Source: Burkholderia latens (GTDB lineage: Bacteria > Pseudomonadota > Gammaproteobacteria > Burkholderiales > Burkholderiaceae). Taken from it: a stretch of DNA of 64,000 nucleotides. The position numbers and the translations under genes were made by a program. Under the pieces are notes generated by a model. The model was given only the letters and a program-made list of their open reading frames with translations. It had not been told where the DNA came from and made no database searches. Shown one piece after another: positions 1-45,850 of this stretch (the first letter of the stretch is position 1; every line of letters starts with the position of its first letter). The stretch covers positions 124,001 to 188,000 of the forward strand of contig NZ_CP013438.1 in assembly GCF_001718795.1 (NCBI RefSeq), given 5' to 3'.

Positions 1-338
1 TCACACAAATCGGCGTGCACCTGCTCACGCTGATGCCCGGTCACGAATCGTCCGAATATCACCGGCACCTGTACGAAGAAGAATGTGTGTACGTGCTGTC
101 CGGCACCGGTACGGTCACGATCGGCGAACGTCGTCACGACGTCGGAGCCGGAGATTTTCTCGGCTTCGCACGCGGCGGCGAAGCGCATGTGCTCGAGAAT
201 ACGGGCGATGCACCGCTCGAATTGCTGATCATGGGGCAGCGCCTCGAACACGACGTGTGCGAATACCCGCGCATCGGCAAGCGGCTTCATATCGCCGGAC
301 AGCTCGAAGATTTCGTCGACCTGCCCAAACAACCGTAG
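1..338 (+). CDS. Cupin-domain protein, 5' end cut by window
   Basis: The reading frame is open from the first bases (the frame includes position 3) to a stop at 336-338, so the true start lies upstream. The readable part has about 110 residues and is a single cupin barrel: a first metal-type motif (EYHRHLYEEECVYVLSG) and a second motif with a Gly-rich turn (GAGDFLGF...HVLENTG). Small cupins of this type bind a metal or small ligand, but the substrate cannot be read from the sequence. The SDR gene starts 68 bp downstream on the same strand. A GTG at 15 could be taken for a start, but the frame continues upstream in coding style. Confidence 0.75.
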   Translation, partial: TQIGVHLLTLMPGHESSEYHRHLYEEECVYVLSGTGTVTIGERRHDVGAGDFLGFARGGEAHVLENTGDAPLELLIMGQRLEHDVCEYPRIGKRLHIAGQLEDFVDLPKQP

Positions 339-2157: not shown

Positions 2158-2259
2158 CGGAACGATCCTCGCAGATGGGCGATGACACGGGAAGGCATCG
2201 CGCGTACACCCGCAAGGCTAGCATTCCGTCGCGATGCGTGTCGTCATGCCGAGCCGAGG

Positions 2260-2284
2260 AAAGCAAAGCAAAGCAAAGCAAAGC
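2260..2284. repeat. Pentanucleotide repeat, five AAAGC units
   Basis: Five uninterrupted AAAGC copies (GCTTT on the other strand) lie between the surE start and the azlCD terminator. Short tandem repeats of this kind can change length by slipped-strand mispairing. Here a change would alter the spacing in the surE 5' region, not a reading frame. The copy number is low, so activity is uncertain. Confidence 0.8.
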
Positions 2285-2293
2285 GCAGATGCG

Positions 2294-2317
2294 AAAACGG
2301 GCGCATCGCGCGCCCGT
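2294..2317 (-). terminator. Rho-independent terminator of azlCD
   Basis: On the minus strand an 8-bp GC-rich stem (ACGGGCGC / GCGCCCGT) with a 5-nt loop is followed directly by a run of T (TTTT including the stem end). It lies about 70 bp after the azlD stop codon and before the surE promoter region, so it separates the two leftward units. Confidence 0.75.
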
Positions 2318-2386
2318 TCCCGCCATCGGGAAAGCGACCATGCGGCGCATGCGAGCCGCATCGCCGCACAGTCAGTATCCCTGGCG

Positions 2387-2689
2387 TCAGCCGAGCAGAT
2401 GCCGCAGCAAGCCGGCCGACACGACGCCGACGATGACGGTCGGCAGGATCGACAGCCGCGTCGCCGCAACCAGCGTGACGGCGAGCGCGACCAGGTCGGC
2501 CGGACGCGTCGACACGAACGCCGGCGCGATCACCGAGATCAGTACGCAGCCCGGCACGTTCTCCATGACCGACGCCATCCGCGGGCTGAGCGTGCGGTTG
2601 CGCAGCAGCACGTAGCCGAGCACGCGCGACAGGTAGGTCGTCGAAGCCATCAGCACGATGGTCGCGACCGTCGCGAAATCAGGCAGCAT
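2387..2689 (-). CDS. azlD: AzlD-family branched-chain amino acid exporter subunit
   Basis: 100 residues, almost entirely hydrophobic, with about four predicted membrane helices, the usual size for AzlD/YgaH. This small subunit works with AzlC to export branched-chain amino acids such as valine across the inner membrane. It overlaps the end of azlC by 11 bp, indicating translational coupling, and is followed by a terminator hairpin. Sequence features of the family include the conserved YLSR near residue 20 and NVPGCVL near 43. Confidence 0.88.
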   Translation of the reverse strand: MLPDFATVATIVLMASTTYLSRVLGYVLLRNRTLSPRMASVMENVPGCVLISVIAPAFVSTRPADLVALAVTLVAATRLSILPTVIVGVVSAGLLRHLLG

Positions 2690-3416
2690 CGCGCGGCTCC
2701 CACAGCAGCGCGGCGGCCAATCCCGCGCACGCGCCGGCCGCGACGTACCACGCGCCGGGCACGGCCAGGTGCGTGGCCGCCGCGACGACGAGGCTCACGA
2801 ACCACGGCCGGCTCGCGCGCATGCCCTTCCACATTCCGCGCAGCAGCACCAGAAACACGGCCGTAAACGCCATGTCGAAGCCGTACTGCTCGACGTTGCC
2901 GATCGTTGGGCCGATTGCCGCGCCGAGCGTCGTCATCGAGATCCACGTGAGGTAAAGCCCGGCACAGACGCCTGCGTAATACGGGACGCTGATGTGCGAG
3001 GCGGAGCGCGCGCGCGCATCGCCGAGCGACATTGCCCAGCTTTCGTCGCACATGAAGAACAGCGCGGCGAATGCGCGGCGGCGCGGCAGGCGCCGCAGGT
3101 AGGGCGCGAAGGCCGCGCCCATCAGGATGTGGCGCGAATTCACTAGGAACGACATCGCGACGATCAGCGCGATGTGCGGCGGCGACGTCCACAGATGAAT
3201 CGCCGCGAACTCGGAGCCGCCGCCGAAGTTCAGCCCCGTCATCATCGGCACTTCGAACAGGCTCAGCCCCTTTTGCGCGGCCTGCGCGCCGAGCACCAGC
3301 GCGAACGGCACGAACCCCAGCATGACGGGCAGCGCCGCGCGCAATCCGCGGCCCATCTCGGCGACATAAACGGGCTTGTCGCGAAGCCCGGACGACGTTG
3401 AAACGCTACTGCTCAT
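2679..3416 (-). CDS. azlC: AzlC-family branched-chain amino acid permease
   Basis: 245 residues, large subunit of the AzlCD (YgaZH-type) exporter. Several membrane helices are visible, and the family-typical segments GFVPFALVLG near 34, NSRHILMGAAF near 93 and CDESWA near 123 are present. A strong Shine-Dalgarno (AAGGAGGAGT) lies just upstream of the ATG at 3416. It is divergent from an Lrp/AsnC regulator that shares the 124-bp intergenic region, a common arrangement in which the Lrp-type protein senses amino acids and switches the exporter. Confidence 0.9.
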   Translation of the reverse strand: MSSSVSTSSGLRDKPVYVAEMGRGLRAALPVMLGFVPFALVLGAQAAQKGLSLFEVPMMTGLNFGGGSEFAAIHLWTSPPHIALIVAMSFLVNSRHILMGAAFAPYLRRLPRRRAFAALFFMCDESWAMSLGDARARSASHISVPYYAGVCAGLYLTWISMTTLGAAIGPTIGNVEQYGFDMAFTAVFLVLLRGMWKGMRASRPWFVSLVVAAATHLAVPGAWYVAAGACAGLAAALLWEPRDAA

Positions 3417-44240: not shown

Positions 44241-45251
44241 TCAGCGCGTCAGCGTCACGAACAGATAACCGGCATACCCGGCGCCGTTCGCGAGCAGCGC
44301 CCAGATCGCCAGCCCGCGCGCACGCGCATTGACGCGCAGCCAGACCGCCGCGGCGAGCGTGATGACCACGCCGGTCAACACTTCCGGGCGCGGCTCCCAC
44401 GGCGTCAGCATGATGCCGATCGCCGGCAGCAGCGTGCCCTGGAATACCATCGCGCCGGTGATGTTGCCGAACGCGAGCGTGTCCTTCCGACGGCGGATCC
44501 ACAGCACGCTGTTGACCTTCTCCGGCAACTCCGTCGCGATCGGCACGATGATCAGCGACAGCAGCAGCGCCGAGATGCCGAGCAGATGCGACACGCCCTC
44601 GACGCCGTGAATGAAGCCCTTCGCACCGCCGACGAGCAGCGCGACGCCGATTGCGAGCTGCAGCGCAATGGTCGCAAGGTTCGTCGGCAGCCCGACGCGT
44701 GACAGGAACATCGCGTGCGGCGCTTCGGTGCCGTGCCCGGCATCGACGAGTTGCGTCGACGCGCGGAACGTCATCACGACGTACAGCGCGTAGATGCCGA
44801 CGAGCATCGCGGCGAGCAGCGCGCGGACGGCCCACACGTGATGCGGGACGAACATCGCGATCGTCGCGAGTGCGAACGCGGCGATGAAGTAGTTCAGGTC
44901 GCGCACGAAGCCGGTGCGCTCGGGCGCAATCGTACCGCCGAGCCCGCGCGAGCCGATCACCGCGAGCGTCATCAGGAAGGTGGTCAACGTCGCGAGCATC
45001 AGCGGCGCGCCGAGAATCGCGCCGACACCGATTTCCTCGTTCACGGCCGCGTTCGACGTGCCGCCCGCGAGCGCGAGCAGCGGCACCATCGTTTCGGGCA
45101 GCGCGGTGCCGACCGCCGCGAACAGCGAACCGGTCACGCCTTCGGAGATCTTCAGCCGTTCACCGAGATGTTCGAGCGCATTGGTGAAGAGTTCGGCGGC
45201 GACCAGGATGACGAGCAGCATGAACGCCAGTTCGACGAGCATCAACGTCAT
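44241..45251 (-). CDS. CaCA-superfamily cation exchanger, probably manganese exporter
   Basis: 336 residues with about ten membrane helices in two inverted halves. The alpha repeats are recognisable: GTALPETMVPLLAL with GAILGAP in the first half, and PIATELPEKVNSVLW with GNITGAMVFQGT in the second. The acidic residues bind the cation. YrbG-type exchangers move Ca2+ or related ions against H+ or Na+. A yybP-ykoY element directly upstream points to Mn2+ export. Its ATG overlaps the stop of a 25-codon leader ORF (ATGA), indicating translational coupling. Confidence 0.85.
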   Translation of the reverse strand: MTLMLVELAFMLLVILVAAELFTNALEHLGERLKISEGVTGSLFAAVGTALPETMVPLLALAGGTSNAAVNEEIGVGAILGAPLMLATLTTFLMTLAVIGSRGLGGTIAPERTGFVRDLNYFIAAFALATIAMFVPHHVWAVRALLAAMLVGIYALYVVMTFRASTQLVDAGHGTEAPHAMFLSRVGLPTNLATIALQLAIGVALLVGGAKGFIHGVEGVSHLLGISALLLSLIIVPIATELPEKVNSVLWIRRRKDTLAFGNITGAMVFQGTLLPAIGIMLTPWEPRPEVLTGVVITLAAAVWLRVNARARGLAIWALLANGAGYAGYLFVTLTR

Positions 45252-45325
45252 GCGGCACCTCCGCAGGCGCGTGCGCGGGCGATCGTGGAAGTCGCGAAAC
45301 GGGAAGGGAAGGCAACGGGATACAT
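45248..45325 (-). CDS. 25-residue leader ORF between riboswitch and exchanger
   Basis: ATG at 45325, preceded by GGAG with 5-nt spacing, encodes MYPVAFPSRFATSTIARAR and a short CGGAA tail. The TGA at 45250-45248 overlaps the exchanger's ATG. Translation of this ORF would load ribosomes onto the exchanger. It may be the direct target of the riboswitch because its ribosome-binding site follows the long hairpin by only a few bases. No homologues are known to me. Confidence 0.6.
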   Translation of the reverse strand: MYPVAFPSRFATSTIARARACGGAA

Positions 45326-45336
45326 GGGGACTCCGT

Positions 45337-45380
45337 GGTCGGACGTTGACGAACCATGACGCATCTGCCGACGTCCGACC
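45337..45380 (-). promoter_or_regulatory. 10-bp inverted repeat, likely riboswitch expression platform
   Basis: On the minus strand GGTCGGACGT (45380-45371) pairs perfectly with ACGTCCGACC (45346-45337) across a 24-nt loop. The 3' arm ends 3 nt before ACGGAG, the leader ORF's ribosome-binding site. There is no T run, so control of translation or of Rho access is more likely than intrinsic termination. Confidence 0.55.
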
Positions 45381-45390
45381 AGGAACGACG

Positions 45391-45502
45391 CGATGCGTCG
45401 ATGGTCTCGCCAGACCGATTCGGCCGAACGCGCCACGGCCGCAGGCCGAGTGTGTTGACGCGTTCGCTTTCCGGGGAAGGAAAGCAGGCTACTCCCCAAA
45501 GA
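45391..45502 (-). ncRNA. yybP-ykoY family riboswitch (manganese)
   Basis: The minus strand carries the family landmarks in order: GGGGAGTAGCC at 45497-45487, a 7-bp hairpin GCTTTCC/GGAAAGC (45485-45466), GCGTCAACA, a GC-rich hairpin, then GGTCTGGCGAGACC and ATCGACGC, whose GACGC can close the outer stem with GCGTC. In E. coli such elements sense Mn2+ upstream of mntP and alx. Here it precedes a CaCA exchanger. The recognition is from remembered consensus, and a covariance-model search would settle it. Confidence 0.8.
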
Positions 45503-45850
45503 CGAACGGCAGTCTAGCGGAGGCGGCTGCTTTCGGCAAGCCTGCGGGCGCGGCGGCCGGTGCGGCGGAGCAACCGGCGCGTCGGCGCTTCACGATGCGA
45601 TGCGGCGGCGGGCCGGCAGCGCGGCTGCCGAAGCGCGCGCCCGAACGCGCGCACCGGGGAGCGCATCGGGAGCGCACCGGGAGCGCACCGAAATACGCAC
45701 CGAAGAACGCACCGGACAGCGCACCGGCGAGCGCGAACGGCGGATCGCAAAAACGGCAGAGCAAATTACATACCCCTATCTTTTGGTTACTAACAACTGT
45801 CACCGAACGCCGTTAAGCTTTCGCCATCCTCACAACCGGGATTCCCCGTC
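45503..45850. other. Region upstream of riboswitch and exeM-like gene
   Basis: No supported gene. About 45650-45740 is a degenerate tandem run of GGGAGCGCACC-like units on the plus strand. AT-rich DNA at about 45765-45800 probably holds the promoter of the nuclease gene. CTGTCACC (45797-45804) equals one half of a Pho box, but the other half is poor. Confidence 0.45.

Follow-up and report, generated by a model that had tools for sequence, protein, structure and literature searches.

What does a metal-sensing riboswitch control when the start codon nearest to it belongs to a reading frame of 25 codons, and the transporter gene begins only where that frame stops? The question is raised by a locus on the minus strand of a 64,000-nucleotide stretch of the Burkholderia latens genome (contig NZ_CP013438.1, positions 124,001 to 188,000; this whole stretch is the window, and coordinates count from its first base), in which a yybP-ykoY element, a hairpin and a small upstream open reading frame (uORF) precede the gene for an exchanger of the CaCA superfamily. 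The answer favoured here, and considered probable, is that a translational riboswitch turned on by Mn2+ would act directly on the small ORF, which would serve as a relay, and that the exchanger would be reached from it by reinitiation.

The riboswitch and the reading frame behind it

An earlier sequence-only reading of the window had recognized the landmarks of a yybP-ykoY element upstream of the exchanger gene, and the covariance model bears it out. RF00080 matches at 45509-45373 (minus strand, as for all features of the locus) with 69.6 bits against a cut-off of 45 (cmscan, E 3.7e-16), which is far above background; nothing else in the 64 kb exceeds the gathering cut-off of its model. Both conserved loops, GGGGAGUAG and GCGUCAACA, are found in the window's aptamer. 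Among related exchanger loci (the best 80 of 534, from named genomes), 77 contain an exact GGGGAGTAG, and 19 of the 20 given to Rfam also match RF00080, the exception being L080. On these sequence grounds the element is a yybP-ykoY riboswitch, one that would bind Mn2+. In L040 (1596-1760), a relative with a tRNA gene just upstream, the aptamer has had its 5' strand (GGGGAGUAG) replaced; RF00080 still scores 72.5 there, with uORF and hairpin intact.

Behind the aptamer, the 10-bp inverted repeat that had been placed beside the GGAG of a 25-codon ORF is indeed present and pairs perfectly (GGTCGGACGT at 45380-45371, ACGTCCGACC at 45346-45337). What the earlier reading missed is that the pairing continues, via a U-A pair, a bulged C and UUCC/GGAG, and covers the ribosome site of the uORF. 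The complete Shine-Dalgarno (SD) hairpin has as its anti-SD arm UUCCUGGUCGGACGU (45385-45371) and as its 3' arm ACGUCCGACCAcGGAG (45346-45331), the latter including the uORF's SD sequence GGAG at 45334-45331. Helix statistics were taken from alignment A1, which holds 71 distinct leaders, and from 500 shuffles of it. Since the tenth pair, at the loop end, is kept in just 20 of the 71 leaders, the conserved stem is one of 9 bp plus the SD extension. Overall, 93.1 % of 1044 hairpin cells are paired, 13 cells carry double changes against 3.5 after shuffling (0/500), and four pairs have changed on both sides against 2.0 (3/500).

Also missed was an exclusive second helix, an antisequestor here called helix X. 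Its 5' strand, ACCAU(c)GACGCAUC (45405-45392), overlaps the 3' end of the conserved GGCGAGACC, and its 3' strand, GAUGCGUCAUGGU (45365-45353), lies inside the loop of the SD hairpin. The 13 pairs of helix X are formed in 98.5 % of 921 cells across the 71 leaders, compared with 22-54 % when the strands are slid; double-change cells number 81 versus 29.2 shuffled, and 0/500 shuffles were as high on pairing and double changes. Because the strands alternate along the RNA (X, anti-SD arm, X', SD arm), helix X and the SD hairpin are mutually exclusive; geometrically, the 6 nt that connect X' with the SD arm seem too few to span 13 bp. RNAalifold, run on A1, predicts 12 of the 13 helix X pairs and leaves out the SD hairpin, as one would expect of a program that can draw a single state. 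The uORF's GGAG is thus part of the riboswitch platform, lying within the 3' arm of a hairpin that excludes helix X, and aptamer, SD hairpin and helix X together form what is, as far as sequence can tell, a complete translational switch. If the window's switch works like other Mn switches of proteobacteria, helix X would represent the Mn-bound, open state. A pairing seen by eye between GGGGA and UCCCC, joining an aptamer loop to the uORF start, was dropped, as Caballeronia leaders have no C-run before the start.

The uORF itself (45325-45248) consists of 25 codons plus TGA, with the translation MYPVAFPSRFATSTIARARACGGAA and an ATG 5 nt after the GGAG. As had been claimed, its TGA (45250-45248) overlaps the exchanger ATG (45251-45249), the two forming an ATGA at 45251-45248. 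Within the uORF lies a further feature overlooked before, the exchanger's own SD, GGAGG, read from the sequence at 45262-45258.

The gene that follows (45251-44241) encodes a 336-aa protein that matches PF01699 (Na_Ca_ex) in two stretches, at 92.2 bits against a cut-off of 24.9 (E 4.2e-26); TIGR00367, the calcium/sodium antiporter model, reaches 77.9 bits and stays below its cut-off of 179.65. Of the six sequence relatives found in the PDB (E 4e-6 to 1e-5), five are NCX_Mj (MJ0091); the sixth, 4kpp, bears only the label 'putative uncharacterized protein', and we take it to be a cation exchanger. A second riboswitch-bearing exchanger lineage, more distant, shows 30-33 % identity to the window protein. 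The closest functional counterpart, compared by description only, is BP3410 of Bordetella pertussis, likewise a CaCA-type antiporter ('calcium:cation antiporter') behind a yybP-ykoY riboswitch; it is Mn-induced and its Mn export is documented by inductively coupled plasma mass spectrometry, and a term search of the paper on it returned no uORF terms (PMC8546581). Because BP3410 exports Mn under the same class of riboswitch, Mn export is plausible here too, and the window's exchanger, earlier proposed to be a manganese exporter, likely exports Mn2+, judging from its riboswitch and from BP3410.

Frame conservation across relatives

Conservation of the leader was followed in the 80 exchanger loci together with five (L116, L136, L138, L095 and L151) that were added after Rfam had been run on 300 genomes belonging to the same order. 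Removal of the riboswitch-less L080 and inclusion of the window give 84 close-type leaders, and L151, which belongs to the distant lineage, makes 85. Proposed from a single leader, the ORF proves to be kept in 84/84 close-type leaders as well as in L151, in each case starting just after the hairpin at SD distance and ending in a TGA that overlaps the exchanger start (ATGA in 83 and GTGA in two of the 85). Its start codon is ATG in 31 leaders and GTG in 54, and its length ranges from 17 to 62 codons, with 19 different lengths among the 85.

It is the frame that has been held constant through this variation. In the main clade, defined as 83 leaders with L095 and L151 left out, a frame-blind search that takes the first ATG or GTG behind the hairpin arm lands in the same phase in 83/83 cases; in L039 that first start codon sits one codon upstream, in frame. 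Mapped onto the exchanger-protein tree, the uORFs of the main clade have undergone at least 28 changes of length and 0 changes of phase, while the control segments on either side of GGCGAGACC shifted freely, with 10 phase changes among 11 length changes between GGCGAGACC and the start codon (83 rows) and 14 among 17 between the aptamer core and GGCGAGACC (82 rows, the core-less row being left out). The chance of the frame being kept over 28 changes is (1/3)^28, or 4e-14. The 2156 uORF codons contain 0 in-frame stops versus 35 and 14 stops in the other two frames, a zero that is partly built in, as an ORF was required, yet every leader had one.

There is no corresponding sign of a conserved product. 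Differences at the three codon positions, taken in three groups that hold 79 of the 83 uORFs, are 0.25/0.18/0.25, 0.20/0.17/0.13 and 0.24/0.25/0.21, with no third-position excess in any group, and across genera the peptides share little by eye apart from C-terminal residues that are set by the exchanger SD. Since at least 28 length changes left the phase untouched and the codon positions diverge alike, the frame is under selection and the peptide apparently is not. Longer ORFs with GTG or TTG starts, which in the window have 62 and 83 codons and extend into the aptamer, were considered as the conserved unit and rejected, because the upstream segments change phase and because in 41 of the 85 leaders a stop codon closes the frame between the aptamer core and the uORF start (L040 being without a measurable core).

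The proposed relay and its alternatives

In the absence of Mn2+, the arm UUCCUGGUCGGACGU would pair with ACGUCCGACCAcGGAG and hide the SD of the uORF. With Mn2+ bound, the closed aptamer would favour helix X, the anti-SD arm would be trapped in the loop of X and the GGAG would be free, such that ribosomes could translate the uORF; those stopping at the overlapping TGA would then reinitiate at the exchanger AUG, beside the internal GGAGG, and the exporter would be made. The exchanger would in this way be produced mainly by termination-reinitiation, perhaps with a contribution of Rho, the coupling at the overlap being proposed by analogy with a mycobacterial case described below. The sequence-only reading had gone further and suggested that the exchanger is controlled only indirectly, through the small ORF. 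One part of that suggestion stands, as the switch surrounds the ribosome site of the uORF; the word 'only' goes beyond the evidence, as the exchanger has an SD of its own and folding shows no mask specific to the uORF. In 83 leaders, the mean probability of the exchanger SD being unpaired is 0.20 with the uORF in place and 0.33 when only the last 22 nt are left (natural lower in 64/83), which might approximate the effect of a translating ribosome in the folding model.

Several observations weigh against the relay as set out. The exchanger keeps its own SD, which is strong in Burkholderia leaders and weaker elsewhere, and the masking of that SD is no stronger than with a shuffled uORF (0.20 in nature, 0.19 shuffled; natural lower in 44/83). 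As a shuffled uORF masks equally well, a mostly paired SD is no proof of selection, and the idea that the uORF has been selected to mask the exchanger SD finds no support. For helix X, the pairs changed on both sides number 5 versus 4.4 shuffled (216/500 as high) and the further pair types 13 versus 13.1, so that neither is in excess; on the remaining helix measures kinship alone can beat shuffles, as the tool itself cautions. Most pairs of the SD hairpin are near-invariant in the clade, and 6 of 15 never vary and are uninformative. In the distant riboswitch-exchanger lineage a uORF is found in just one of six leaders (L151), with L137, L145, L146, L149 and L178 having no uORF and the hairpin directly before the exchanger start (starts estimated). 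Finally, there is the riboswitch-less control, comprising 36 exchanger loci from 35 genomes of the class besides G001 (an exchanger gene was found at E <= 1e-40 in 36 of the 369 genomes searched), none of which contains RF00080. A stop one base inside the exchanger start is present in 18 of the 36 and absent from 17, one start being unresolved, and the overlap alone is weak evidence because it is so common in riboswitch-less relatives. An ORF of 15-62 codons in the frame of that stop occurs in 3/36 controls, with an SD-like motif in one of the three; chance leader ORFs thus occur in such relatives, but they are few. The strong evidence for a relay ORF is, by this comparison, the kept frame and not the overlap.

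The kept frame, together with the absence of a kept peptide, could also be explained if the uORF were a transcription shield. Left untranslated, its RNA would be bound by Rho, which would terminate transcription before the exchanger gene, and Mn2+ would bring ribosomes to cover the site, with the exchanger initiating from its own GGAGG. This is the main rival, and a doubtful one by our estimate, or else a second layer, as it may act together with coupling. C-rich, G-poor RNA is typical for Rho binding, and the uORFs, at 40 % C and 20 % G compared with 32 % and 33 % in the exchanger genes, have that composition; in 58/83 leaders the excess of C over G in the uORF surpasses every window of equal length sampled in the kilobase that begins at the exchanger start. 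A scanner found no intrinsic terminator in 45200-45700. The E. coli mntP riboswitch, of the same class, is under Rho control that Mn partly relieves (PMC11647493), and the authors of the B. pertussis study conclude that the exchanger leader transcript ends early there without Mn (PMC8546581). Composition is merely suggestive of a Rho-binding (rut) site, though, and a shield by itself needs no stop at the exchanger start, yet the stop is there in 85/85 leaders, a count to be read knowing that relatives often have one anyway. It is unlikely that the uORF is an inert remnant and that translation of the exchanger, from its own SD, goes on independently. The GGAGG of Burkholderia, the five of six distant leaders that manage without a uORF, and the uORF of L095, which resembles a leftover (below), would all fit; a leftover would nevertheless lose its frame, which was held through at least 28 length changes, and would leave the riboswitch with no useful output unless the switch were transcriptional.

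Two further possibilities seem remote. If the uORF encoded a small protein with a function, or a leader peptide that senses through fixed codons, its conserved presence would be accounted for, and a precedent exists in CruR, a copper-sensing uORF of Bordetella (PMC9426467); such a product is very hard to reconcile with lengths of 17-62 codons, with so little shared between genera by eye and with codon positions that show no third-position excess, and a sensing leader peptide or attenuator was rejected, no conserved residues or codons having come out of these comparisons. Lowest of all stands a transcriptional switch with the hairpin as intrinsic terminator. The hairpin is perfect, GC-rich and downstream of the aptamer, as a terminator would be; it lacks a T-run, the scanner does not call it, and in exchanger and UPF0016 leaders alike its 3' arm ends in an SD close to a start codon, and the terminator was rejected on the scanner result and the missing T-run.

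Returning to the layout of the relay locus, a possible promoter was seen by eye at TTGCCG (45539-45534) and, after 17 nt, TAGACT (45516-45511), matching 8 of 12 consensus bases. The promoter scanner called none, this candidate scoring under its threshold; in the aligned leaders, the look-alikes TAGACT, TAGAAT and TAAACT stand at the candidate -10 position. Transcription from it would start at the aptamer. Between this candidate and a divergent gene for an ExeM/NucH-type nuclease lies a degenerate 12-nt tandem repeat (GCGCACCGGAGA) of 7.3 copies (45649-45734).

Origins, counterparts and significance

How the arrangement came about can be approached through the other genes behind this riboswitch. 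Of the 300 genomes, 113 have RF00080 (83 over the cut-off), and 100 places were examined, with 32 lower-scoring ones and a second copy in G055 left out. The downstream gene is an exchanger at 15 of these (9 close, 6 distant), UPF0016 by motif at 75 and unassigned at 10, eight of the last falling in an MntP-like cluster (named by eye). The UPF0016 (MneA/GDT1) leaders resemble the window in hairpin, SD and a start at about equal distance from the aptamer, with a median from start to aptamer core of 182 nt (interquartile range 170-192, n=63; starts heuristic) compared with 172 nt for the uORFs (interquartile range 172-177, n=83). They differ in that the hairpin's 3' arm and SD adjoin the transporter's own start directly. 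A stem of at least 7 bp ending within 22 nt of the start is present at 55/63 UPF0016 starts, 83/84 uORF starts and 46/84 exchanger starts, against 37 %, 48 % and 31 %, respectively, in shuffled sequence; the platform is built around the uORF and not the exchanger, because stems end at 83/84 uORF but 46/84 exchanger starts. Five of 75 UPF0016 starts have a stop overlapping by -2, four of them with a start that gives 4-15 codons, and these were taken as chance.

The same survey turned up riboswitches in other arrangements. In L086 and L091 (G002:C1:1298694-1299161), two Mn riboswitches stand back to back on opposite strands with 113 bp between them, one ahead of a UPF0016 gene and the other ahead of an MntP-like gene. 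G055 has twin Mn riboswitches of 112 bits each, 20 kb apart on one contig (G055:C2:152205-152377 and 172457-172629), and a third elsewhere in the genome. L129 / L218 (G159, of the genus of G029, the genome that carries L095) has a Mn riboswitch, a hairpin, an SD-like GGGAG and a GTG-started 34-codon ORF, with no UPF0016 or exchanger start visible by eye in the 228 nt before the contig end. In L092 and L105, at about 2250-3170, proteins that by eye are cation-diffusion-facilitator-like follow the riboswitch-controlled UPF0016 gene. In L151, a guanidine-II riboswitch (134-188, minus strand, 41.7 bits) lies downstream of the Mn-riboswitch exchanger gene on the same strand.

An exchanger tree of 64 rows, which include 22 of the 85 riboswitch-uORF rows, unites the riboswitch-plus-uORF loci of Burkholderiaceae and Chitinibacteraceae in one clade (100/98). 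The tree proteins of L181-L216 are longest open frames, some of them probably wrong (L205, L216 and L209 were flagged). L095 falls outside the main clade, beside the riboswitch-less L080 and L181, and L151 falls within the distant exchanger clade, for three label changes to riboswitch plus uORF in all. L095 and L151 are, by their placement, likely of independent origin; separate origins make the simplest reading, with a single gain of riboswitch and uORF and later losses as a possible alternative.

The uORF of L095 carries a trace of where it came from. It opens with MEAFLISTDIVSLADIGNKT; a profile built from 73 UPF0016 N-termini matches it at E 3.5e-12, and at the DNA level it aligns with the UPF0016 gene of L096 over 131 nt at 71 % (E 6e-12), with the start codons in register and one gap. 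It is best described as the decayed, frameshifted N-terminus of a UPF0016 gene, that is, a displaced Mn-transporter gene turned leader ORF. Four genomes from the family to which G029 belongs were searched, and one of them has the exchanger. To the points weighed against the relay above is to be added that no UPF0016 trace was found in the other 84 uORFs, the window's included (next best E 0.27), and that DNA matches of the other uORFs to UPF0016 or MntP-like loci are short and at E 0.008 or worse; a UPF0016 ancestry of all uORFs was rejected, L095 being the only one of the 85 to show it. The arrangement is probably the result of an exchanger gene landing behind a riboswitch with a translational platform that required a reading frame. 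A more ambitious version, which we hold only tentatively, sees the uORF as an evolutionary adapter: the first codons of the displaced gene would remain as a translated relay to whatever gene follows, with frame, stop position and Rho-sensitive composition selected and the peptide not, and there may have been up to three origins (the main Burkholderiaceae/Chitinibacteraceae clade, L095 and L151). It is given lower odds because the tree does not force separate origins.

Among known systems, E. coli mntP is like the window in aptamer family, in being a translational ON switch and in serving a Mn exporter, and unlike it in that the exporter gene is the direct target there, whereas the window has an interposed small ORF and a probable CaCA exporter (PMC11647493). 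Two leaders of Mycobacterium tuberculosis come closer in layout. In the B12 riboswitch of ppe2, the SD of a short uORF, uPPE2, is masked and the uORF stop overlaps the next gene in an AUGA, with ppe2 made mainly by termination-reinitiation at the overlap, as was shown with reporters; it differs in being an OFF switch, in an actinobacterium, in that ppe2 is described as without an obvious SD whereas the exchanger has GGAGG, and in that uPPE2 is called partially conserved, while uORFs of the window's type keep the frame only (PMC11260477). The M-box of pe20 is likewise a metal riboswitch with its translational platform on a uORF, Rv1805A, and with Rho-dependent termination; it is, by contrast, a Mg2+ OFF switch, and Rv1805A is described as highly conserved, with homologs elsewhere (PMC12810186). 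The earlier suggestion that a small ORF would be an unusual output therefore holds for the yybP-ykoY class and not for riboswitches generally. No paper describing a uORF in a Mn-riboswitch leader was found among the matches listed, in a search with most subscription journals outside it, and the window system would add a variant to the coupled leader ORFs under riboswitch control, in a class with no such report found.

With this locus, a metal exporter and a very common class of riboswitch would join the few cases in which a short coupled ORF is the direct riboswitch target. For experimental work, it follows that reporter fusions made at the exchanger start alone could misread the switch. For the biology of these bacteria, it is one more circumstantial sign that Mn2+ is exported by some of the CaCA 'calcium' exchangers. 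The leader ORF is kept for its frame and apparently not for its peptide, its length having changed often enough for that selection to be measured. The locus also suggests a route by which a translational riboswitch, which as a rule serves a single start codon, may be re-used with a new gene.

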